A model generated the notes under the pieces. It ran no database searches. It was not told where the DNA came from and was given only the letters and a program-made list of their open reading frames with translations. A DNA stretch of 64,000 nucleotides from Zygaena filipendulae (taxonomy: Eukaryota; Arthropoda; Insecta; Lepidoptera; Zygaenidae), in contig OU015677.1 of NCBI GenBank assembly GCA_907165275.2, positions 3,906,001-3,970,000 on the forward strand. Reading direction: 5' to 3'. The translations under genes were made by a program, and so were the position numbers. Below, one piece after another: positions 21,844-63,270 of the stretch (position 1 is its first letter; the number at the start of each line of letters is the position of its first letter).

Positions 21844-22470
21844 CTATTTTCGGTTTGCGTCACGATGAACACAGAGCCAGTGCTTAAACACAGGACTTGA
21901 GATATAACTACAGACAGTGTTGAGTATGCAGTTGCCAGACCTACGTAGACCATCCCAAAATGAAGATATACGAGCCCTGAGCACAGCAAAGAAATCTGGT
22001 ACTCTCGCTTCGGCGAACATGCTTGATGCGCTACAGTAGGGTGGAAGCTTCATAAGGATGCGGAATGCATCATTGTACTGCACCCTTATGGTGCTCATTG
22101 ACGCTCTTGTGAAATTAACCCACAGCTGGCAAGTGTAAAAACATTGGCAATACGCCTTAAAGAGAGTGACTTTTACGTCCTTACTGCACTTTGCGAAACG
22201 TCTGGCAAGCATGTTACACCGTATTGAGAGCGTCCTTCTCTCTCTTTCAATGTCGCAGTTATCTCTCAAGTCCTCCGTGAGCACATGACCAAGGTACTTG
22301 AACCTGTCCACAACCCGAACTGCTGATCCATCAAGCCAGACCTCCGGTACTCTCTCCGGACCCCGACCCGCTCTAAATATCATCATCTCAGTCTTATTGA
22401 CATTATACTTCAGTCCGTGAACATTTGCATAATGTTCGCAGACTGAAAGTAGCTTTCTTAGACCGTTGAT
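21844..22470 (-). pseudogene. LINE reverse transcriptase, C-terminal fragment
   Basis: The open frame from 22386 encodes 180 residues. The same frame extends back to about 22470, reading INGLRKLLSVCEHYANVHGL before TEMMIF. It contains the usual KYLGHVL motif of the region after the RT catalytic core, then a helical stretch with DAFRILMKLP typical of LINE ORF2 C-termini. The polymerase active-site motifs lie upstream and are missing, so it is an inactive remnant. The exact clade (Jockey, CR1 or other) is not assigned. Confidence 0.75.
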
Positions 22471-22663
22471 CGATTAAATCAGATGTAACTTAATTTGTTA
22501 AAGGCCAATTAACATTGATTTATTTAAATTGTCTAATTGCTGCAGTTTTGTTTTAAAAATCTATACTTAACTAAGTAATCATTAAAGTCGACTCTGAGTG
22601 CGGCGGTTATAATATTAGTAGGATAGTAGGATTTCATTAAAATATAATTTCATTTTTAATGTG

Positions 22664-22685
22664 TTTATTAAAAACATTTTTTATT
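22664..22685 (-). terminator. Two poly(A) signals after terminal exon C
   Basis: AATAAA at 22685-22680 and again at 22669-22664, about 100 bases beyond the exon C stop. Confidence 0.6.
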
Positions 22686-22780: not shown

Positions 22781-25106
22781 TCACCACCTAAAGTAATCGT
22801 TATATTCGTACATCGATTTGCAGTTCCTAACAGGCTTTTTCGATTTCCGTCTATTCAGATAGGAATCAGAATTGCAACAGCACGCGTCACCTCGTATCCT
22901 TATACGCGGTATACTGCTCGACCTCCTTCTACTTGCTACTGGTCTAACATCATATCTGTCTGATCTCTTCGTACATGTGGAAGCATCAACTTTCTCACAG
23001 CACGACGTGGACATAGAACGCTGGGACTCTGCAGAACAAACCGATTTAGGACAAGAACTCTTCGACTCTTTCATGCTGGGACAGCTGGACTTGGATTGTT
23101 TCTTGACTGAACAGCACACTGACTTAGATAAAGAAACGTTTCCATATGAGTAACAGGTTTTAGCGCTTTTGATTGATTCTCTGGAAGGTCGTCTTTTCGG
23201 TGACGGTGGACAGCTGAGACTACCCGAACCGACTGCTGTACTCCTGCAAGACGTGCAAGATTCAGTCTTCGATACACCAGAACAGCTCACATTGTCTTTC
23301 TGACTCGTAATCGCAGCTTGACACATCTTGCACACTGACTTATTCGAAGAACAAGTGCTTGTATCCTTTCTGCTATCGCCTTCCAGATCCTTTTCGCACA
23401 TCTTGCAAATTTGCTCTGACTTTTGAGTTTGCGAAGACATAAAACTGCTCAATTTTGATGTACAACTCCTGCAAATTGGGTTGTTTTGCTCAGTGTTTAT
23501 AGAAGGTTGCGACATGCAGTTATCATTCGATGTTTTGCTCGGTGGCAATAATATCTTTCTGAGGGCGTCAAACAGACTGCCCCGTAAACATATATTCGGA
23601 GGTTCCTCGGATTCAGCCTCATCGCATAGTGGACATACTTTAGCTGCTTTAGCAACGATTTTGATGTTACAACAACTGTTGGACTTGTTCATTTTAGTCT
23701 CACCTCCCGCACTAGGTGTATAACTTGATCTTTCCGATCTTTTTCTACTAGGGGCTTTGCTTGGTACATAATCTAAGTCAGTAGTTGAGGTACAAACATC
23801 TCTCCACAATGCATCTGTTGACGTGGAGCAGGCTAGTTGTTCTTTGCACACTTCTTTATCACACGAAGTCATACATTGGACTGATTTACTACTACATGGC
23901 ATTTTCTTCGGTGGTTCTTGGAAGCAAGACTGGGCGGATGCTGACCTAGAAACAATTTTACAACATAATGGTTCTGTTTCATCGTTCACCACCGAACCCG
24001 TCAAACTGCTGCAAACAGAACCAGTGTATTTATCACCACAAATACATGAATCTACTGATGACGCTTTTGACACCTTCTGCGGCAATGTCACCCTGGAATT
24101 TTTTTTAGACACTTTCTCACCGGTCTGACATGTTGATAAATCTTTGTTACCACCAGATAAACATGAACGTAGATGTAGGTCGCGCGATCTTTGATTGGAC
24201 GCTTCAGATTTTATTCCTCTGGTTCTAAAATTTGTGTCTGACTCGCCTCCTCCTGGCATGAAGCTCCCTCCGCCTCCACCTCTACCTCCACCACCATAAC
24301 CGTCATCATCGTCGTTCCCATAACAAGAACCTATGAACTTTTCATCACTCTCCCCATCTTGGATACCTGATCGTGGATTTTTTCGCTCGGTCTTTACAGT
24401 TATAATTTGCTTCTCTTCACGAATCGTACCATCGGGATTCTGAAATCTGGTCACTTTGACTATCTCTTCGTATTTCTTTTCAAAATAACCAAACTCTTGT
24501 ATTTCGTTTATATCTATATGGCTGCCAGGTGGTGGTTCTTCTTTTGGTCTATCCGTTTTTTCGTAGCACGGCCGCAAGCAAGTTAGAGGTTGAAGAGGTT
24601 CAGCAAACGATTTAATAGACGATGTTTTTTCAACTATTTTCATAGAACTTCCTCGATTAGAAAATATTATTTCATCCTTAGCTTTTACGCATGATCGGAT
24701 GAAATTATCTATTTCGGGGGGAACTATTCCTTCTAGCTTGTAACGCTCAGACATTTTTATTACTTCGTCAATGTGTGTTTTGAGCTGATTAATGCGTTCG
24801 TCGTTTCTATCTTCTTTGTCAAAGACTGTTCTACTAGGAGCTGGTTTTGAGGGTAAACTTTTGGCTGCTTTGGAGCATAAAGGACAAATTGTTTCTTCAA
24901 GATATATATCATCGTCTTGATCAAACAAAGCTTTACAACAGCAACACACGTGTTCGCTTTTAACTTGATTCTTCTTCGCTTTATTCTGTTTCACCCTTTT
25001 TAATCGAAAAAACTCCTCCCTGGAAATTTCTTCCAATTCTGCTATTATGTATTGTATTGTCATATGTATTTTTGGTATAATTACTCTGGCTAAAACATTT
25101 TTTTTC
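22781..25106 (-). CDS. Vha36-like: V-ATPase subunit D-like, terminal exon C
   Basis: Acceptor TTTATAG at 25107. Coding starts before the first Met (25063) with KKNVLARVIIPKIH, then IIAELEEISREEFFRLKR. Numbered from that Met: CCCC 40-43, CPLC 60-63, helical module 93-134, FGYFE..DGTIREEK segment 190-229, an acidic and Gly-rich hinge at 238-274, then a very Ser/Cys-rich tail with CPLC, CRSC, two CKMC and CTSC pairs. It ends in an Arg/Lys-rich stretch. 760 residues from the Met, about 950 in the full protein. Two AATAAA signals follow (22685-22680, 22669-22664). Confidence 0.8.
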
Positions 25107-25198
25107 CTATAAATAAAAATCTTAAGTTTATCTTTAAGTTCAAATGTCAGAACATTATAATTAAAGGCGAATCATTAAAATGATTTACTCACCCTTCC

Positions 25199-25204
25199 TT
25201 TATT
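25199..25204 (-). terminator. Poly(A) signal after terminal exon B
   Basis: AATAAA on the minus strand 20 bases past the exon B stop, followed by GGGTGAGT, a G/T-rich stretch. It supports exon B acting as a genuine last exon. Confidence 0.6.
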
Positions 25205-25223
25205 AAAATTTCAAATGATATCA

Positions 25224-27204
25224 TTAAACAGTATTCGTATTACCTGTTTGATGACTAGATAAATGTGGTTCTGTTACATTAGAGTCTACTTGTTCAGCTG
25301 CTGCTGCTGTTTCTACTGAATCAGTTGGAAATACTACTCTTATCAATTCTTCTCTAGTAGGCAAACTAGCTTCTGCACTAACACACTGTCTTAAAATTGG
25401 TCCAGCAATTTGAATGCGCCTTGTAGTTTCGGATTTAGCTCTTATCCTCATAAATCCACGTTGATTCTGTTCTGGATCTGTTAAATGAGCTATTCGTTTT
25501 TCATTGTTTTTATCCGCTATTTCGCGATTTTTTTCGTCGAGTTCATCGTCAGTTAAAGGTCCATTATTGTCAGGCTCACGTTTCTCAGATTTAATTGTTA
25601 TTGTTTCTTTTTCTTCACTTATAGTTCCATCTTCATTTCTTGATCGTTTAACTCTAATGATTTTACGAATTTTTCTTTCATAATAACCTAACCTATATCC
25701 TTCGTTATTATCATCAACTTCATTATTTTTGTCATATTCTGGTGTATTAACTTCTTTGAACAACATGGAATCGGTGCGGTGTTTTGAATCATGTGGTGAT
25801 TTAACGTTAAAATTATGAAGATTTGGTGGATTAGAACAAGTTTCACAAAGTTCTTCTTTCGTCTCCTCTCTGCAGAAACTACAAGGTGGAGGAGGTAACT
25901 CTGAGTGAATAGGCTCATATGTCTCCTCCATAATATACTTTAGACATCCATCACATAACTCCATTAACGATGATTCATTACACGCACAAGATTCGTTACA
26001 AACAAATTTCTGTTCAAATTTTAAGTCAGAGCCAAACCTTTTGCATATGTTACATGATTTCAAAAATTCATCAAAAGTTTTAGAAACAAGGCCAAGGGAA
26101 TTGTATTTAGCAATTAGTTCTATAACATCATCGGCTTTAGTGACATTGTTTACTGCTTTTATGAATTGTGATTCTTGAGATAGTATTTCTGGTATCTCAT
26201 TCCGTAAAATTTCTTCCTTAACTTCCTTACACTGTTCTATAAATTCGTCAACATCGGAAATTAGGTTGGCTTTTTTTGCTTCTTCACTTAGTTTCATAGC
26301 TTCGTCTAGTTGTGTGACCAATTGATCGATATCACGTTCTTCACTCAATTTAACTTCATTGGATACCTCTTTACCTTTCAGACAAGATTTTTTTTTAATT
26401 TCATCTTCTTTTAAATCTTCTGGATTTTCAAAATTACAGAAATCTTTTTTAGTATCATTTGAATTTGCTTTATACGAATCTACGACACTTTTCATACAGG
26501 TGTCCATTTTAATTTTAATACGCTTGCACGATTTAAGAAGTTCCTCTAGACCTGGCACTACAAAACCAGTACCTTTAAAATTTTCACCCACTTTAGCAAC
26601 TCGATCTATATAGCTTTTTAAATGCTCAAGATTAGTTTTGGCTTCCACCGTAATAGGATTGCTTGTTTCACTTATTTCTCTTTCAAAGTTGTTTTTTATA
26701 TCAGTGACTTCGAACTTTTCATCAATGGCATCCGAGCCAAAATCAGAATCTCTGAAGCCTGGCATTTTAATTTCATCGGATTTTGCATCTTCGAAATCTT
26801 TAATGCAACAAACTGGTATATAAACTTCTCTTAATGATACTGTTTCGAATTTGTCATCATATGTTTCGCGTTCAAGAATAGGAGAACACGTCGAACAAAT
26901 AGGATTAAACTCATCTATGATTTTCTCCTCTGTTCGACTCATAATTTCTGGTTCTAGCACTAGTTCTGGCGAACATATCGAGCAAATACCATCATGAGAT
27001 TTCATTTCTTCTGATTCCTTGATGTGACTGGCACTGTGTGGCGTCGTTTGACCTTCTTTTTTCTTTTTGTCTCTCTGTTTTTTTTGTACAACTTTCTTAA
27101 GTCTAGCAAAATCTTCTCTAGCCCGTTCTTCTAACTCCAACAATATATATCTTATAGTGCTTTGTATGCGCGGTACTATCATTTTGCTCAATACATTCAT
27201 TTTC
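25224..27204 (-). CDS. Vha36-like: V-ATPase subunit D-like, terminal exon B
   Basis: Acceptor TTAACAG, then KMNVLSKMIVPR and LELEERAREDFARLKK, the subunit D C-terminal helix, followed by a lysine run. Numbered from the first Met: CSIC 73-76, CSTC 102-105, three related helical modules at about 191-233, 291-333 and 348-390, a Cys-rich stretch at 401-455 (CNESCAC, CDGC, CSFC, CETC), then the LGYYE..DGTISEEK segment at 504-541. 658 residues. AATAAA follows 20 bases after the stop (25204-25199). The full protein would be about 835 residues. The gap to exon A is 145 bases, too small for a separate gene head. Confidence 0.8.
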
Positions 27205-27349
27205 CTGTTAAAAAATTATATCCTGTACTGTATGCTAGAGTCATAGCTACCGTGATTCACCCTTTTGTCTTCAACTAAGGACCTCTTGATATAATTTATG
27301 ACTTTCAAAATTACTTGCCTTAATTGTTACGTTTATGGGTAAATTTGAA

Positions 27350-28733
27350 TCACCTATCTTTGTTTTTGTTACTACAAGAGGGCTCGATGATATCACTATT
27401 ACAAATTAAATTACTGCTGTCTATTCGTTTAATAACATCAAGTGACGCTTCTTGTTCAATATTTTCCTTAAATTTTACAATATCAAGTTGCAATTGATCT
27501 GTAATTCTGCGTTCTTTAGAAGAACTTATCGAGAGAGATAATAAATGTTTCTCCATATACTTGAAGAAGCTTGGGGTATCAAATTCGTTTCTTGTCGACG
27601 TTGAAGGTATGTTATAATCGTACACGTCCAAGTCAAACATACGCAATATTTCAACATCCCTTCGAGAGATCAAGAAGTTTTTAAAGTCAATATCTAAGGA
27701 GCGAATATCTACGTTAGAATTATCACTTTTGCTTGTGATTAAATTGGTTATACTTAAATCATTAACTTCTCTGTCAACTTTTTGAGGCAAAGTGGGATCA
27801 GAAACACAATGTTTTTCCATGGGATTAGGCGTTGGACTCGATTCCATATTGCTTTTAATATTAACAGTGTTTTTAAGTGTAACTACTCCGATTGTTTTAG
27901 AATTATTGTAAGGATAAGATTTTAAAGAAAGGTCGGAATCTTTGTATAGCAGCTGTTCTTCTTCTATTTCATTGTTTCGTGTTGATGTTGAAACTTCTTT
28001 GTAAATTTCATTTGCGTTATGAACTTCTCTTTTAACTGTTGTAACTCTCTTCTCTTCACCAATTGTTCCGTCTTTATTTTTAAATCTTACTACTTTTGTT
28101 GTAATTTCAATTTCTGTTTCAAATACTCCGAGCTCTTCATCGACATCTGTCAGCGTTTTCACTGATTTAACAGTAATTTCGTCCATTGACAATTTCTCGC
28201 TGATGCCTTCTTCTACAGTAGATTCGTCCTCAAGATCTTCATAATTAAATTGCATTTTGATCTTCTGTGTCTTACAAGAGCTACATAAGTCATCCACCTG
28301 TCGAGTTTTATGGTCTATTTCCAGTTTGTTTTTTAATTCTTCAGCTTTTTGTAAAAATTCTTGAACACTCACAGATACTAAACAATTCTTCTCTATATCT
28401 TTTGCCATATTTATTATGTCATCTACATGTATCTTGAAATCTTCAACTTTATGTTCATCCATTAGGTTTTTATTAACTCTCTGTTCGGGCCGTTTTATCT
28501 CTAATGGTTCGCCACAAGCAATGCACTTTGGTCGATCTTTGTCCGATATTGCTTTACAAATTTGACATGTGTTAGCCATCACTTTATGCTCACATAATAT
28601 TTTTCCTTTGACTTGCATTATCTTTTTCATCCTAAAGAATTCCTCTCTCGCCATTTCTTCTAATTCAACGATTATGTATTTGATTGTAACATTCGTTCTT
28701 GGTATGATGATACTAGCGAGTACATTCATTTTC
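27350..28733 (-). CDS. Vha36-like: V-ATPase subunit D-like, terminal exon A
   Basis: After acceptor CTACAG the exon reads KMNVLASIIIPR, then a helix with VELEEMAREEFFRMKK, the C-terminal helix of subunit D. Numbered from its first Met, a cysteine cluster follows (CEH at 46-48, CQIC 55-58, CIAC 69-72), suggesting a zinc ribbon. Next come a helical module at 95-138, a CSSC at 149-152, and a beta-like segment at 199-236 with LGVFE, KVVRF and DGTIGEEK. The remaining 220 residues are Ser/Asn-rich and probably disordered. 459 residues to a stop at 27350. No AATAAA lies before the next exon's acceptor; two CATAAA variants do. The resulting protein would be about 635 residues. Confidence 0.8.
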
Positions 28734-29567
28734 CTGTAGAATATGTATCTTATTGTTTCTTACAATTCATCTTCATATTTTATACTACCAACGACTCATT
28801 CTTCCGTTACGTAAGGACTAAACATGTCAGTACAAATGATATATTTAACTTTAATAATGATAATTAAGTCTTCTCTTTTATCATCACTTCTTTAATCATC
28901 TTTAGAATTAGTCTCTTCGCTGTAAAGCCTCACTGACGATGAACTCTATTCTTCAAATCCGTCAGATATTCCGGTTTTACAAGAAAATATAACTACACAG
29001 AGGTATTCATTTAATCTTAATCTCACCTATTTGACAATATTCACCTTAGTTTCTGATCCAACATAATTTGCAAAATAAAATGTTACACATTGTCACTACA
29101 CAGTCATTACACATGTCGTCATTATCATTGATGTAACTAAACATAGTTTCAACCCTAATAATTTGGATTAAAAAAATATCTTTTCATTATTATTCTAGTT
29201 CCAATTTTAAGAAATACAGTTGTCCATAGATTTGATTTTATTTAAGTCATATTAATTTGTCGTAACAGTCCAGTCCTTAGATAGACGGAAGGGTGAGTTC
29301 ATCGGCAGCGCGACCCCAGAGATAGGGCTTATTTCAAATAAAACATCATTTACATCATGGCCTTTATTAATTTTGCTATGACCGATCACATTTTAATACA
29401 ATATATCGGGTACTAGTTACTACATTATGTTTAGTTCGAAAACTTTTTGTTGCGTTTAGACTGCACTTGCATGATACTAAATGTTTTGATCGTCATCATA
29501 AATCGACGATCAGATTAAATTAATAAAGACCATTCTCCCTAGCTCTATTAGAGTGTTAATATCTTAC
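28734..29567 (-). other. Intron between common exon 4 and terminal exon A
   Basis: 834 bases of AT-rich sequence without repeats I recognise. GTAAGA donor at 29567; CTACAG acceptor at 28734. Confidence 0.6.
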
Positions 29568-29728
29568 TTGGTAGCAGCTCTATTAGCAGAATCCAGCATT
29601 GTGAACTCAATACGGAGTTGCAACATGAGTAGTAATCTCTTCAGCAGTGCCAACCAAACTGCTTTCGCTTCGCTTATGGCCTGACCTCCTTTTTCTATTC
29701 CCAAGTGAGCATAGGCATCTTCACCACT
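29568..29728 (-). CDS. Vha36-like: V-ATPase subunit D-like, exon 4 (common donor)
   Basis: The acceptor TTTTTTTTAG precedes 29728, giving 53 codons plus two bases, then donor GTAAGA. The translation SGEDAYAHLGIEKGGQ matches GSDTYELAGLARGGQ, and the helix that follows reaches FTMLDSANRAAT, in register with FVTLDEVIKITN. The frame ends on AA, so the next exon must start with a base that completes Lys or Asn. All three downstream acceptors start with G (Lys). This is the last exon that all isoforms could share. Confidence 0.85.
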
Positions 29729-30373
29729 CTAAAAAAAATATCATCAAAATTACAACATATACCTACGATATTAGAAACTAATGTGACTGCGATGCAATCC
29801 CCATGTTTGTTTCATGTGAATCATGTGACTAAAGTCACAAATAATAAAAAAAACTACTCAAAACTAGAAATAAGGAACCTAGACATTGTAATAGAAATTT
29901 GAAGTCCACAAGTCACAACCTCGCTAAATGAAGATAGATCCACGACATAAATGAGTAACAACGTGGTTTGCAGTTGTAGGCGATCCACATATATTTTGCT
30001 ACCACCTCTAATTGCTGGCCGCCTGGTAGTTGCAAAGCTCATCGTTACTACCAAATATCCTAGCACGTAACCGCTAGACAGCGTGGTTGCTCTACAATAT
30101 ACATAAGTGTTACTCTTACTGTTTCATGTGAACAACCCACAATCATTCAATGATTAAAGGCTTCATAGAGACACCACCCCTTTAGCCAAGTCGATAATAT
30201 TTAATCGTGATCACTATCGAGGTACCCATCTTCATGTCACACGGTCACTAAAAATAGTAGTCCATTTTTTGTGACCTCGTGACATAACTGTCACCTTGGC
30301 TGAGAGGGGAGGGCTTACAAAGATACAAACGGTCTCGAGAGCAGAGGACGTCGTTGACTAAAATATAACTAAC
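29729..30373 (-). other. Intron between exons 3 and 4
   Basis: Starts GTTAGT at 30373 and ends with an eight-T run and AG at 29729. Short open frames inside (29705-30066) are read as chance. Confidence 0.6.
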
Positions 30374-30445
30374 CTCAACAACTTCGAACTGCAGTACCCT
30401 CACACCTGACACGCTTTTGACGTTGCAGTCGACGGTGACAGTTGC
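30374..30445 (-). CDS. Vha36-like: V-ATPase subunit D-like, exon 3
   Basis: Exactly 24 codons between acceptor TTCGCAG and donor GTTAGT, phase 0 at both ends. They read ATVTVDC..SVSGVRVLQFE, which aligns with the AQIKIRT..NVAGVTLPVFE beta segment of subunit D. Alternating hydrophobic residues fit a short beta hairpin between the two long helices. Confidence 0.75.
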
Positions 30446-31000
30446 CTGCGAACACACAAACACACAATCAGAAAGTCAAGTCAAGACAGCGTGCGGCGTC
30501 GAGTCGAGTCGATAGTCGAGCCATGGCATTATCCCGGTTGATTGACGACAATACTTTCCTTAACATTATATAAAAATATCGCTGCTTATAAAGCTAAATT
30601 TAACAACGTGAAAAAATTGCAGTGAAGTCGAGGCTGAGTTCCACTGTGCCTCTTCGCCACGGACTCGACTCTCTTTACTATGAGGTAAGAGGTAGGAAAA
30701 TGTACTAAATTTGTACAGCCATAAACTTGTTCAGCTAACGCAAATCCCAAAGATATCCACGTCTCTTCAGTTAAATTTAAACACCAAAACGTGTGATTAG
30801 AATGAATTGAAATTCCACTCAGATTTATGACCCATAGATTAGGATGAAATTTCGATTCAACTTTTGTGTGTATAAGGAATGCTTACTTATTCGGTACGTG
30901 GAATTTATATAAATAATCTTACGGTAACGTTGCAGAATTATTTTGGTGGATTACTAACTACGAACTGCACCCTGGTTGGTCCAATTATTGAAGCACTAAC

Positions 31001-31112
31001 CACTTGTGGAGGGTTTTCAATAACCATTTTGTTCAGGTTCGGATAGAAATATCTGGCGCGGGCTAGCAGCATATAAGCATTTTTCATATCATCACGAAAA
31101 TTATCGTAAACA
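31001..31112 (-). CDS. Vha36-like: V-ATPase subunit D-like, exon 2
   Basis: The acceptor TTTTCCACAG precedes 31112. The 37 codons include VYDNFRDDMKNAYMLLARAR and NLNKMVIENPP, matching the MGDVMKEAAFSLAEAKF and INQVVLQN region of subunit D in the long first helix. The donor is GTTAGT after 31001, or GTGGTT after 31004, which would drop one Val and align without a gap. The frame stays open past this donor to 30938 and upstream past the acceptor to an ATG at 31213, but those extensions do not resemble the family and are read as intron. Confidence 0.75.
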
Positions 31113-31851
31113 CTGTGGAAAAGAATCCAAACATAAAAATTATTTATACGCTCTAGAATTTTTGAAAGCGACATTTCGATTGTTACAAGTGGATTTTTGA
31201 TATCAATTTCCATTTATGACTGTCGCAAAACTTCATTATCCAAAACTATCACATTTTTTTATGTCATAGAGGGCAAACGGGCAAGTGGTACACCTGATGG
31301 TAAGTGATTACCGCCGCCCTTAGACATCTGCAACACCGGAAGGCATGCAGGTGCGTTGCCGACCTGGAATGGGGATACGAACTGGCTTTCAAAAATCACA
31401 TTTTAAATACTTAGTGAAGTTTTGCAGCGGCAATGTCTTTTACGTACATACAACGTACATACGTACATAGGTACAGTACAATAATAGTACATGATACGAG
31501 TGAACTAAGTTTGTCATTAAAATCGTGGTTGGATAGCGACCTGAACAAGCATGGGCTTGATTAATAGAATCGAGAGCATGCGCATGCGTTTTTTAACACA
31601 TTTGCCGGAAAGAAAAATCAACAAAGCATTTTTTTTTTACTGAGATTAAAGAAAACTAGTTCAGTGATTAAAATTTACTGCACTAGTTCTGTAATGTTAA
31701 CTAAAAAGCATATGTGTTTAAGCTGAATTACTAAGTCATCTATAAAGGCAGTGAATTATGCGCCACTTTACGAGCATTGTGTGTTGAAAAATAATATTTT
31801 ATGATTATTGAGTCAGTTTAGCTGTCAGGAAAAACACATTTTGCTGCTTAC
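31113..31851 (-). other. Intron between N-terminal exon and exon 2
   Basis: GTAAGC donor at 31851 and TTCCACAG acceptor at 31113. It contains a retroelement fragment at about 31253-31400. Confidence 0.55.
31253..31400 (+). repeat. Poly-T-headed retroelement fragment (GGGCAAGTGGTACACC family)
   Basis: Begins with a T run, then 'atgtcatagagggcaaacgg', 'gcaagtggtacacctgatgg' and 'tgcgttgccgacctggaat'. Near-identical pieces lie at 37286-37540 and 52931-53072. Probably a SINE or LINE-derived short element; class not certain. Confidence 0.65.
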
Positions 31852-32029
31852 TTGTATAGGTCGCTGGCAACCTTTCTTTCCTCTCTTCCGGTGGCCATGG
31901 CAGTCCACTTCATGAGCTTCCGCCCAAGGTGTGCCAAGTGGAGGCGGTTCCGCATCTGCTGGAGAGCGACCAGGGACGGCATACACGGGTACCTGCTGAC
32001 CCCGATGCTGATATTCTTGTCTTCTTCAG
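31852..32029 (-). CDS. Vha36-like: V-ATPase subunit D-like, N-terminal exon
   Basis: Reading from 32029 down gives GAA GAA GAC AAG and a segment with ISIGVSRYPCMPSL, which aligns with the conserved IFPSR..QMLM start of subunit D. A basic helix follows (GRKLMKW) and the exon ends DLY plus two bases. Donor GTAAGC at 31851. The acceptor TGTACAG at 32030 follows a CTAAC branch-like site. Upstream in frame there is a stop (TAA at about 32052) and no ATG, so the initiator must lie in an earlier exon or be the internal Met of CMPSL. Residues are less conserved here than in the later exons. Confidence 0.65.
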
Positions 32030-33054: not shown

Positions 33055-34066
33055 ACATAATTGTTCTCCCAGAAGGAGCATCTCTAGGTTGATATAATGT
33101 ATGGAACATGTAGAGGGCACGTTTCGGTGATTATGGGAAAACCTCGACATCTTCGATTCCTGCTTCTCATCAGGTAGTGAGTCGACTGCCCGCCGAAACT
33201 ATCCATCGAAAGTGAAAACGTTTCTAACTAAATTTCATTCACACCTTGGGCAAATTTCAATAGTGTCACTTTTTTTTCAAAATGGCGGAAAAAAACATGG
33301 CCGCCGAACAAAATTCAAACTCGATTATCTCCGAAACTAAAAGAGTCAGGTAGGGGGTGCTCAAACAAATGTCATAGAGGTCAATGGGGGGCAACCGCCT
33401 GGCGTGGTCAAAATCCAAAATGGCGGATTCAAAATGGCGGCCGAAAAAAAAGTTGATCCGATCCGGGTGAGGTTCGGCATCCGGGGGTTTTTGGGGTCGC
33501 TGATGCCGAATATCGAATCAGTTTTTCGATTGCGTAATTTTTCAAGATGGCCGCCGAACATTAGTTGTTTGTATGGGGAAATTGTTTCGGCCCTGGCTCG
33601 GAAACTATCGGCCGTGAGTATTGAAAAAAAATTTGTACAGTTGGTGGTGCACTATCTTCTTCTATCGGGATATAAATAATTCCAAGATGGCGGACGGATT
33701 CGAAATGGCTGGCGAAAAAAGTTAAGCATAATTGTTCTCCCAGAAGGAGCATCTCTAGGTCGATATAATATATTTAAGATGTGGAAAGGAGGTTTCTGTG
33801 ATTGTGGGAAAACCTTGACGTCTTCGATTCCTGCTCCTCATCAGGTAGTGAGTTGACTGCCCGCCGAAACTATCCATCAAAAGTAAAACTGTTACTTACA
33901 AAGTTTGATCCACACCTTGGGAAAATTTAAATAGTGAAACTTTTTTTTTCAAAATGGCGGAAAAAATCATGGCCGCCGAACAAAATTCAAACTCGATTAT
34001 CTCCAAAACTAAAAGAGTCAGGTGGGGGGTGCTCGAACAAATAGAGGTCAATGGGGGGCAACCGGG
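33055..34066. repeat. Direct duplication of a unit of about 670 bp
   Basis: The block starting TTGTTCTCCCAGAAGGAGCA at about 33060 recurs at 33730. Both copies run through GACTGCCCGCCGAAACTATC and 'aaaatggcggaaaaaa' to 'gaggtcaatggggggcaacc'. AAAATGGCGG / AAGATGGC words also occur between them. The second copy stops near 34066. Confidence 0.75.
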
Positions 34067-44137: not shown

Positions 44138-44254
44138 TATGTAGCGGAGGTATTACGAGCAGGTATAGGTATTGAACTCACATTTGCTGTAGAAATGGAA
44201 TTTTGGAAGTGAATGTAAGTTCAATACCTACCTGCTCGTAATACCTCCGCTACA
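44138..44254. repeat. 117-bp palindrome ending TG...CA
   Basis: Arms TGTAGCGGAGGTATTACGAG and CTCGTAATACCTCCGCTACA pair over about 38 bases with a short central loop. It abuts the gypsy-type protease remnant and supplies that frame's last 12 or so residues. Confidence 0.8.
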
Positions 44255-44874
44255 GTGGTGACCCCGACGTGATGTACGACGTCATGTTTGGCTGGCTGCT
44301 TAAGAGACATGGGTCGGAGAACGCCAGGAAAATGCTTCAAGATATCGTGATATTGTTGGTCGGAGCTCACGATGCGAATGGACTCGGCGGTTGTTGATAC
44401 TTCAGTGGCGTCGACGGTAAGCTTGGTTTCGTCGTCGATTAATTTTTTTCTGTGAAGATCCACAAGGAGCTTGTAGTGACGTAAGAAGTCTGCACCCAAT
44501 ATGGAAGTCTTCACGTCTGCGACAATAAATGTCCAGGTGAAACTGCGCCGTAGTCCCAGGTTGAGCTTGATTGTTTTCTCGCCGTAGGTATTTATCGGTG
44601 TGTTGTTTGCCGCGTAAAGTTTGTAGGTATGTGCGGCCTTTTTCTTAGTTTTCGATGTTGCAGCCCAAACAGATATATCTGCGCCAGTGTCCACGAGGAA
44701 ACGTTCGTGTGAGTCGCGATCATGAACACAAAGGCGGTCTGACCGCGTCGTTTCGAACGAAAACGTGTGTACACTTAGATGCTCATTTTGAAAAATCTCC
44801 TGTGATTTTGGGGGGGGGAATAGGGTAGAACAAATCTTACGATATCTTAAGATGAAGATCATGAAGATCGCCAA
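44221..44874 (-). pseudogene. Gypsy-type (Ty3) retrotransposon protease remnant
   Basis: A 217-codon frame with the retropepsin active site FLVDTGADISV at about residues 59-69 and the second conserved motif ILGADFLRHY near 125-134. After it comes KHDVVHH, the usual linker to the reverse transcriptase. RT, RNase H and integrase are absent. The frame runs into the palindrome at 44138-44254, so the pol gene is broken here. Aspartic proteases of this kind cut the Gag-Pol polyprotein of LTR retrotransposons. No LTR was identified. Confidence 0.8.
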
Positions 44875-46449
44875 ATTCGACTAACGTAATTCATGAACGC
44901 CCCTTTAGGTTACAACAATATGGCCCTTTTTGTTTAGAAGTGACATATTTTTGCTCATTAACTATACTTTTTGTTATATTAAGTATTTTGTATAATCATT
45001 CTCATGTAATTAAGCGATTATATATTAATCTAATGAGGAGAAGAAAGATTCTTCAACCACATATTTGTAGTTACACTTATTAGACAGGTCTGAATGTTCA
45101 AAGCTCTGTGATCCCCTTTGATCGTGCTGGGGCCGGGGTGAGTACACACTTTTGTAGTTAAATTAGACCACACGGATGCATTAATGCGATATGCGATGCG
45201 GTGTGCGCCCGCCTTTATGTCTCGCATCGCATCCCTTTGGCTGTGGAGTTGGCAGGAAACATGCGTATCTAGCCTTTACCACATGTTTATTTTAAAAAAG
45301 ACTTGTGACTAGCAATTCGTTACATACCTAGACCTAGGTACACAAGATTATATTATTACGCGTAGAGCCGCATTCAGCGCATTTATAGAGTCATAGAATT
45401 TGAAGTGTAGTGAAAACAGTTTACTACAAGTCGGTAGGTACGTCTCGGTGCGAACGTGTCTCACGCAAACCTTATGTTCTTTTGAAGAACTGCTTGCAGT
45501 ATTATCAAAACCGGTATTTAAAAAGTAATGAATAAAAAAATATTGAAAATTAAGTATATTACGTCATTAATCATTAATATCTGGGTGACCGGCTTCGCTC
45601 GGAGCGCCATCTGTTGTTAAGTAGTAAACCTACCAAACACTCAATTTTCATTGCCTGAAAACACGGGTAAAACGACGTTTTCTAAAAATGAAACCTAGCT
45701 TGCTAGATCGATTAATCGCCCTCGAAACCTCCTGCATACTAAATTTAAAGAAAATCATTAGAGCCGTTTCCGAATTTTTTTTTTCTTACCTATACGTAGT
45801 CTTGAAAAGTCTACACTACGTTAGAATTGCCTGAAACGCGTAAGCTTTTATTTACATTGCAATACACCGACTAACCAATAAAAGAAAGGAATGATAAAAT
45901 AAAAGATAAAGAAACGAGCAAAATGATTCTATGCAAGCTTGGCGAGGCAAAGGCAACTACAACGTTCTGCCTCCCCACCACTCGTCATAAACCATGTAAA
46001 AATAATAAGGAAAAAAAAAAGGTGCTTCAAAGTGAAGAGCTCTTGCAATATAAAGTCATTGAAAGCAAACTGGAAGAAAAAATCTCCCGTGTGCCGCGTA
46101 GGATTGCGTAGAAAGCATTTCCCGCCAACTCTGTAATTGCTATTTTATAAATAGAATAAGAAATTTTTGCTACATACGTTTTCCTCTTGCTCGCCAGTTA
46201 CAAAACATTCAAGTTCTTTTTTTCCTTTTTCTTTTTAATTTCACGATTTACCACATTTTTATCAGCCTAAATTCAATTCAGCTAGCAATTCTTTATCATG
46301 TGAATAGTATTTGAATTTTTAGAACGAAGTTCTTTAACGTACGGTACGGATAGGAGTAAAAATTCAGAAGCTACACGGTCGCTAAAATACCCACCAACGA
46401 CACTTAACTCTTAAGATGATAATCATAATAATGACAATCTATTCAAACA
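44875..46449. other. Intergenic; one repeat of another family
   Basis: 45590-45790 starts GTGACCGGCTTCGCTCGG and contains CGATTAATCGCCCTCGAAAC, reminiscent of a second Helitron or SINE family with one copy here. No gene seen elsewhere. Confidence 0.4.
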
Positions 46450-61818: not shown

Positions 61819-63270
61819 ATGAACTTCATAAAAAAAATATTTTGGAACCAACTTCAGGATAACCAAAAGAAAATGCTTGATGAAGACAACAATTTGTCAA
61901 ACGGAGACTTTATCGAACACCCTGAAAGTAGTTTTGTGGCTCGTGAAACCGCACACGCAAAGGTTGATTTAGAAAAATTGGATGAATTTGCCTCTGGTAA
62001 AACTGAGGTGCATCAAGCCAATTATACCAATACTGGAAATAATATCTTAACAGCTTCTGGTCTTCCTCGCGTTGTTGATAACAAAGATATATTACCAATT
62101 CGTATTGAATTAACCAGTAATGATATGCTTTGTTCACATGAAAATAAAACTTGGGATATAGATTGCAAGAAATCAGCTGTTGAAATCAATAAATATGAAC
62201 CAAGCTATAATGCATCAGTTGAGGGTTTGGATTCGAATACTAACATAGATTTAGACATTGTAGATGACAATGTTGAAATGGTTGAAGAAGTAAAAGATGT
62301 TGAATTTTTTAATCCTGAAGCATCGTCTAAAAGTAGTTTAACAGGAGAGATTTGTGTTTCATGTAATAATAATAATGAAGATAATAACGATACAAATAAT
62401 AATATTTTCAAGGAAGCCGCAAATTCACCTAAATATACCACGTTGACGAATGTTGTAATAACTACTGTGGCGGTAGAACATGAGTTTACAACTTACAACT
62501 ATAATTTTAAAACCGAAAACATCGCTTGTGAAACCAAAGAACATATTATCAATAGCTGTAAAGAAACAAATGATTCTAATTTAACAGACAATGAAATGAT
62601 TAAATTTGAAATCTTTGATGAAAGTAAGATTTCAAATTTTAAAATAATAAAACCAAATAATACAGTAGTTACTGCACATTGTGAAAGTTTAAATGGAGAA
62701 GCAAATGCAAATAATTTCATTGAAACGATTAGTATTAGCTCTACTGATGATAACTCTGAAAATTCAATATTTAGTATAAGCTCCAACGATAGTAGAATCG
62801 AAGATGGAGAGGATTCAGACTACTGCAGCGGATATAATTCGTCCGATTTCGAATTTATCACAGAGACTGAAGCTAAAAAAGCCGGTATTGCCTTCAAAGA
62901 TAACAAAGCTACTTTGAAACTCGTAGAAATCATGAAAGATTTAGATTCGGACAGCGATAAATTAGAAAAACTTAAAGATATACCTCCAGGACCTAAGGAT
63001 AGACATATTTCTAGAGCACCGAGTCGAAATTTCATAGATATCAATGACAATTATAGAGAAAGTCACCGGATACCGGAGGGTGATGCATTTTTGAATCTGT
63101 TTCAAGGGATATATGCACCCGCGATGCCAAGATCAATGTATTATATGGAGAACAAATCCACCCAGACAAGTCAACCAACGAACGCACGTCTCGATGGATT
63201 AGGCTTTGACGTTCAAATGCTGTGTCGGAGACATGACGTGGAAATTGAAACAAACGAGGAGCGTAAGTAA
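61819..63270 (+). CDS. Unrecognised acidic Asn/Ser-rich protein (exon, probably incomplete)
   Basis: 483 codons from the first ATG, with steady codon use and no stop, far beyond chance in such AT-rich DNA. The N-terminus (MNFIKKIFWNQLQDNQKKML) is a basic amphipathic stretch without a signal peptide or membrane segment. The middle is low-complexity acidic sequence with an Asn run near residues 190-200 and several Ser/Asp clusters. The C-terminal 130 residues look more ordered: EAKKAGIAFKD, DIPPGPKDRH, AFLNLFQGIYAP, STQTS, GFDVQMLCRRHDVE. A strong donor, GTAAGT at 63263, lies just before the in-frame TAA, so the true exon likely ends at 63262 and coding continues downstream, possibly outside the window. 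I do not recognise the family. Confidence 0.7.
   Translation: MNFIKKIFWNQLQDNQKKMLDEDNNLSNGDFIEHPESSFVARETAHAKVDLEKLDEFASGKTEVHQANYTNTGNNILTASGLPRVVDNKDILPIRIELTSNDMLCSHENKTWDIDCKKSAVEINKYEPSYNASVEGLDSNTNIDLDIVDDNVEMVEEVKDVEFFNPEASSKSSLTGEICVSCNNNNEDNNDTNNNIFKEAANSPKYTTLTNVVITTVAVEHEFTTYNYNFKTENIACETKEHIINSCKETNDSNLTDNEMIKFEIFDESKISNFKIIKPNNTVVTAHCESLNGEANANNFIETISISSTDDNSENSIFSISSNDSRIEDGEDSDYCSGYNSSDFEFITETEAKKAGIAFKDNKATLKLVEIMKDLDSDSDKLEKLKDIPPGPKDRHISRAPSRNFIDINDNYRESHRIPEGDAFLNLFQGIYAPAMPRSMYYMENKSTQTSQPTNARLDGLGFDVQMLCRRHDVEIETNEERK

Follow-up and report, generated by a model that had tools for sequence, protein, structure and literature searches.

Can one gene supply the same motor shaft with several different ends? 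The question is raised by a locus in the lepidopteran Zygaena filipendulae, in a 64,000-nucleotide stretch (GenBank assembly GCA_907165275.2, contig OU015677.1, positions 3,906,001 to 3,970,000; hereafter the window, in whose own numbering its features are given). A minus-strand gene related to subunit D, part of the rotor shaft of the vacuolar-type ATPase (V-ATPase), spans 32577 to 22781 of the window, and a preliminary description of this DNA had proposed that its body is followed by three alternative terminal exons. That a single gene here has alternative terminal exons in tandem and in matching phase is well supported by the sequence comparisons below. The best overall reading, which we consider quite likely, is that of a divergent subunit D paralogue in which one shaft is completed by one of three tails.

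Three tandem candidate terminal exons follow one body

The common body ends in exon 4 (29728-29568), which encodes the start of the C-terminal helix (...SANRAAT) and stops on AA, two bases into a codon (phase 2). When the body is matched by itself to the Pfam subunit D profile (ATP-synt_D, PF01813), the match breaks off at position 153 of 196. Three large open frames lie downstream on the same minus strand: terminal exon A (28733-27350, 460 codons plus stop), terminal exon B (27204-25224, 659 codons plus stop) and terminal exon C (25106-22781, 774 codons plus stop). An AG acceptor precedes each of them, always in the same phase, and the first base, G, completes a Lys codon. Re-reading the sequence confirmed the body exons, large frames, acceptors, phase and separate stops of the preliminary description, along with its intervals of 145 bases between A and B and 117 bases between B and C. 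When the single bases of the region were shuffled 200 times and read in the three minus-strand frames, the longest open frame averaged 91 residues and never exceeded 184, which excludes a chance origin of the long frames.

All three exons begin with the missing part of subunit D. Pfam ATP-synt_D matched the starts of A, B and C (E-values 5.3e-10, 7.3e-10 and 2.6e-9), each match beginning at profile position 157 or 158 and ending at 194 or 196. A six-frame profile search of the window found three copies of this shaft helix and three beta modules, and these helix counts together with the short intervals rule out separate full genes, as had been claimed at the outset. Pairwise comparison of the helix copies gave 0.84-0.90 differences per silent site (pS), which is saturating, and nonsynonymous divergence (dN) of 0.23-0.36; since silent sites are saturated and dN is low, the three copies are both old and constrained.

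Beyond the helix, the tails are ~415-735 residues long, and none of the three contains a Pfam domain over cut-off in that part. They nevertheless have a common plan of shaft helix, CxxC stretches, helical hairpin and a beta module of the form GxFExxxxEIxKVxRxxNxDGTxxEEK, which points to tandem duplication of one tail exon. The hairpin is single in A and C and present three times in B, and C also carries a Cys-rich tail with an RYDVR motif (Cys content 7.3%, compared with 2.6% in A and 3.7% in B).

Counterparts in other Lepidoptera

Three protein searches returned at least 40 different relatives; two of the searches scored only candidates that shared most words, and length and word limits were in force. 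Organism names were attached to 35 of the 40, all from genera that we take to be lepidopteran, and the other five are tail-only frames. The shaft helix is present in 36 of the 40. The closest parallel is Manduca sexta LOC115440292, whose isoforms X4, X2 and X1 have identical 179-residue bodies followed by A-, B- and C-type tails, respectively. Outside the helix, these tails matched exons A, B and C at 110, 164 and 243 bits, compared with 54, 59 and 67 bits for the next best, and the window body plus helix is identical to X4 at 139 of 229 positions (61%).

Homologous isoforms diverge at the junction between exon 4 and the tail. Records from Manduca, Ostrinia, Leptidea and Chilo have identical bodies within each species (179 or 180, 178, 179 and 178 exactly shared N-terminal residues) and part at this same point. 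The proposal of one gene with alternative terminal exons thus gained support from the Manduca isoforms, and looking for the array in other Lepidoptera did turn up counterparts. For Zygaena filipendulae itself, cis alternative splicing is supported, indirectly, by these comparisons.

In a tree of 33 tail pieces and 78 columns, tail types grouped across species (support 98/97 for A, 95/87 for B and 89/81 for C). Because the tree, one misfit apart, sorts tails by type and not by species, the tail array is old. Of the 43 sequences at hand (40 relatives and the three window tails), 11 are not tree rows: P0015, P0020, P0024, P0026, P0035, P0038, P0039 and P0040 lack the helix or the module; P0023, P0028 and P0030 are close copies. 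One row consists solely of the second Leptosia module.

Manduca has a fourth tail, O3G_MSEX003803 (P0015). The part of P0015 beyond its helix had no match in the Zygaena filipendulae genome, and on that search a fourth tail there was rejected. Two C-type tails, in Chilo P0035 and Plodia P0039, contain many tandem repeats, with units judged by eye at ~50 residues in P0035 and ~30 Cys-rich residues in P0039; from these repeats, internal repetition seems to have lengthened the C-type tail in certain lineages. Among seven relatives searched against Pfam, the only other match over cut-off was Ago_PAZ_arc in the Chilo P0035 repeats, which we took as spurious.

Relationship to the ordinary subunit D

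Is this gene the housekeeping subunit D? The body joined to helix A matched PF01813 at 121.5 bits (cut-off 25.7) over positions 2-194 of 196, and PF01813 matches also occur elsewhere in the 366-Mb genome, where the window gene sits on the contig that we number C28. An ordinary subunit D gene lies at C15:8549800-8553600, and its joined exons score ~320 bits against mammalian subunit D. The window gene aligns with it gap-free, with 60 of 196 residues identical (30.6%). A third, short subunit D relative with at least three open pieces (848-1129, 1660-1902 and 2424-2645) is found at C18:8446000-8452500. Since the ordinary gene, of the Vha36-1 housekeeping type, is on C15, sequence comparison indicates that the window gene is a divergent lepidopteran paralogue of V-ATPase subunit D. 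The preliminary identification stands for the fold, given the full-length PF01813 match and the Manduca model described below, but it did not recognise a divergent paralogue next to a separate ordinary gene.

The tail junction also differs from the ordinary gene. The C15 gene has an intron in the Val codon of VIIPR, and the window junction lies eight codons upstream of it (23 coding bases, counted from the flanks) and in a different phase.

AlphaFold2 models of Manduca X4 (A-type) and X2 (B-type), which are relatives of the window protein, were compared with solved structures. The X4 model has two long helices, at 25-86 and 137-226, and a middle domain, like solved subunit D. Foldseek ranks 1-36 for X4 were all V- or V/A-type ATPase chains, with template modelling (TM) scores by target of 0.58-0.79, and those chains also found in a sequence search are named subunit D. 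For X2, subunit D again came first, and all 10 matches at E-values up to 0.001 were V-ATPase chains. Conservation with yeast Vma8 extends to about its residue 210-214.

Body exons and processing signals

The body comprises four exons, as first described, and probably a fifth at the start that had been overlooked. Exon 1 (32029-31852) encodes the N-terminal helix (...RYPCMPSLVALQQMRNRL...) and matches PF01813, and exon 3 (30445-30374) encodes the middle domain (ATVTVDCNVKSVSGVRVLQFEVVE). The probable exon 0 (32577-32559) has 19 bases, with an ATG, the peptide MKGDDD and a weak phase-1 donor, G|GTTCGT. A pattern scan of the 31,971 bases preceding exon 1 returned it as the single candidate, and it resembles the Manduca start, MRGDDD; homologue starts read MRGDDD, MKDDD or MFKDDD.

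Exon 2 (31112-31004) most likely ends at the donor CAA|GTGGTT at 31004 rather than at an in-frame alternative at 30962, which is 14 codons longer and leaves the reading frame the same. With the 31004 donor, the protein aligns gap-free over 196 residues to the genome's ordinary subunit D and scores better against five of the five homologues tried, so we favour this end. The joined window proteins used in profile and homology searches carried the longer form (to 30962).

Processing signals are unevenly placed. An AATAAA just after the B stop (25199..25204, minus strand) is a possible poly(A) signal of B's own, and two AATAAA follow the C stop (22664..22685, minus strand). The interval from A to B holds only CATAAA variants. 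With AATAAA after B and C and not after A, transcripts that use A may extend through B or C. Pyrimidines make up 43%, 48% and 57% of positions -25 to -5 at the acceptors of A, B and C, a hint, from n=3 sites, that the proximal acceptors may be weaker.

The A stop is overlapped by a donor-like sequence, TAG|GTGATT (27350-27356), whose phase would suit a splice to B, and the C stop by another, GTG|GTGAAT (22781-22787), with no further exon known after C. A simple donor filter passed the first as the only in-phase site in A, also passed the one at the C stop, and passed no in-phase site in B. Since C has such a site with no known later exon, donor-like sites at the stops may be due to chance.

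A proposed mechanism

The common body stops inside the C-terminal helix, and we propose that each transcript would pick one of three tandem, homologous terminal exons. The chosen exon would supply the last part of the shaft, corresponding to about residues 169-214 of yeast Vma8, and the long tail would then leave at the top of V1. Because the intron interrupts the C-terminal shaft helix, each terminal exon would have to complete the shaft as well as add a tail. The exons most likely came from tandem duplication of one ancestral exon with helix, CxxC, hairpin and beta module, followed by divergence in which hairpins were amplified in B and C became Cys-rich.

Studies of subunit D in other organisms bear on whether a rotor could carry such a tail. 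Yeast Vma8(1-216) fused to green fluorescent protein (GFP) makes a working pump and Vma8(1-209)-GFP does not (PMC3155378), and by analogy with the working fusion a bulky addition at the start of the tail would be physically tolerable. A tail anchored to a static partner would hinder rotation. The protein mEAK7, when bound to subunit D, is reported presumably to block torque, yet the same paper describes activity in vitro as unaffected (PMC9174246). The tails may thus be free, docking or braking elements.

What such proteins would do is more tentative. That they are specialised rotors, perhaps of the male germline, whose tails either stay free or serve for docking or braking, is a suggestion for which we would claim a little less than even likelihood. 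A further step, in which splicing would alter cargo, docking or a brake at the top of V1 and so provide different sperm pumps from one gene, perhaps in eupyrene and apyrene sperm, is speculative and on balance unlikely. In Pieris rapae, V-type ATPase terms are enriched among the eupyrene-biased sperm proteins (PMC13060016), the V-type ATPase complex is reported as enriched in a lepidopteran sperm proteome (PMC5712127), and in Drosophila testis expression is recorded for 11 of 17 V-ATPase paralogues lacking a regulatory motif (PMC10452791). The window gene is not named in the available parts of these three papers or of PMC5364652, and the main text of a Galleria paper (PMC11288676) contains neither 'V-type' nor 'ATPase'.

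Alternative explanations

Several observations weigh against a subunit D paralogue with three alternative tails. On NCBIfam TIGR00309, the window protein in its form with the longer second exon scored 71.2, just under the cut-off of 72.25 (Manduca relatives scored 80.7, 83.3 and 87.7). The structure models are of low confidence: the mean predicted local distance difference test score (pLDDT) is 49.8 for X4, with 371 of 643 residues below 50 and the shaft helices mostly at 60-85, and 51.9 for X2, with 443 of 930 below 50, and X2 superposes poorly (TM by target 0.39-0.49 over the first 17 ranks). The isoforms of other species are automated annotations. Four of the 40 homologue models lack the helix (P0024, P0026, P0038 and P0039), and in Plodia one of two models with 177 shared residues is without it. 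The tail tree spans 78 columns. Leptidea X10, preset as B, fell inside C as the one misfit in that tree; Plutella fell in A, to which it had been preassigned with no BLAST hit to any tail; and with the 40-residue helix alone, B and C were not the best matches of their Manduca counterparts. The in-phase donor-like sequence at the A stop belongs here too, as do gene models in Pararge (P0003) and Leptosia (P0033) that join an A tail to B-type sequence.

These last two points are what would be expected if A were not terminal and spliced from TAG|GTGATT, its only passing in-phase site, to B in frame, placing two shaft helices in one protein. Against this, the body runs directly into B in Manduca X2, Ostrinia X1 and Plodia X2, B has no passing site, the site at the C stop suggests that both may be chance, and a second shaft helix presumably could not pair. 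Fused A-B transcripts are possible, and we regard a non-terminal A as improbable. Separate promoters for the tails, with trans-splicing onto the body, are another conceivable arrangement, on the pattern of Drosophila mod(mdg4), where constitutive exons are joined to independently promoted alternative 3' exons (PMC12692577); here the intervals of 145 and 117 bases leave little promoter room, and the single strand and compact order suit ordinary cis splicing, which makes this very improbable. That B and C are dying duplicates and never used is hardly credible given their long intact frames, the purifying pattern in the helix and the retention of counterparts in other Lepidoptera.

A more serious alternative accepts the same gene and splicing and places the protein outside the V-ATPase, where it would be a structural scaffold, in sperm for instance, that keeps the coiled coil only as a fold. 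The protein is only ~31% identical to the canonical subunit D of its genome, while the latter still scores ~320 bits against the mammalian protein, and the tails are very long, with that of C rich in Cys. There is also a precedent in Drosophila Knon, an ATP synthase subunit paralogue of the testis that bears a giant tail and has a role in mitochondrial shaping (PMC5364652). On the other side, the protein retains the subunit D profile over its full length, and all three tails show constraint on the shaft helix. Moreover, Knon expressed in flight muscle altered the ratio of dimers to monomers of the complex, so a paralogue with a tail can stay in its complex. We find a scaffold role almost as easy to accept as to doubt. 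The arrangement of one shaft body with three alternative tails is common to both views of the protein's function.

Comparison with known systems

The locus resembles V-ATPase subunit D (ATP6V1D, Vma8, insect Vha36) in its full-length PF01813 match and, as modelled in the Manduca relative, in two long helices for which subunit D is the best structural match. It differs in its divergence from the canonical subunit D of the same genome, its giant tails and its three last exons. A mammalian variant, ATP6V1Dv2, is on record, with no tail array described in the part of that source available (PMC2835735). Manduca LOC115440292, labelled uncharacterized at NCBI, is the counterpart gene and differs by its fourth tail. 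Knon (knotted onions; 734 amino acids, 532 of them extra; PMC5364652) is likewise a rotary-ATPase subunit paralogue with a giant extension at the C-terminus, but it derives from the F-type peripheral-stalk subunit d, has one tail and has been studied experimentally. The window gene does not belong to the Knon family, as its significant sequence and fold matches are to V/A-type subunit D.

Human Cap-beta and Drosophila mod(mdg4) and lola also join common 5' exons to one of several last exons (PMC3228551, PMC12692577), whereas in the window gene the choice of exon would complete the shaft helix of a rotary motor and add a tail of hundreds of residues. Yeast Vma8-GFP, with its large adduct after residue 216 at the end of subunit D (PMC3155378), is the nearest physical analogue, but it is artificial and has one adduct. 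A search of main texts gave no paper on this gene among the matches listed, and six locus names did not occur in the main texts searched. The initial statement that no subunit D with this layout had been described thus holds for the literature searched, but automated annotations already carry such isoforms.

Other features of the window

Just downstream of the gene, a retrotransposon-type frame at 21844-22473 (minus strand) has a weak reverse transcriptase match below cut-off. Upstream, a near-identical short stretch (MDSFGGQSTHYLMRSRNRR) occurs twice, at 33150-33206 and 33821-33877 (minus strand), and is probably an interspersed repeat. A second retrotransposon-type frame, at 44221-44880 (minus strand), has an aspartyl protease match, and a 483-residue open frame, counted from its first ATG, lies at 61819-63270 (plus strand) without a Pfam match. 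Scans of the window with Rfam (gathering scores) and ARAGORN gave no matches.

Significance

To our knowledge, variants of rotary ATPase subunits mostly change stator or membrane parts. Here the rotor shaft itself appears with exchangeable giant tails, kept in many Lepidoptera, and the shaft helix is conserved in each tail copy. The system lets one ask whether a natural rotor can carry an effector domain, and it offers a starting point for following up reports that V-ATPase is enriched in the sperm of Lepidoptera (PMC5712127, PMC13060016).

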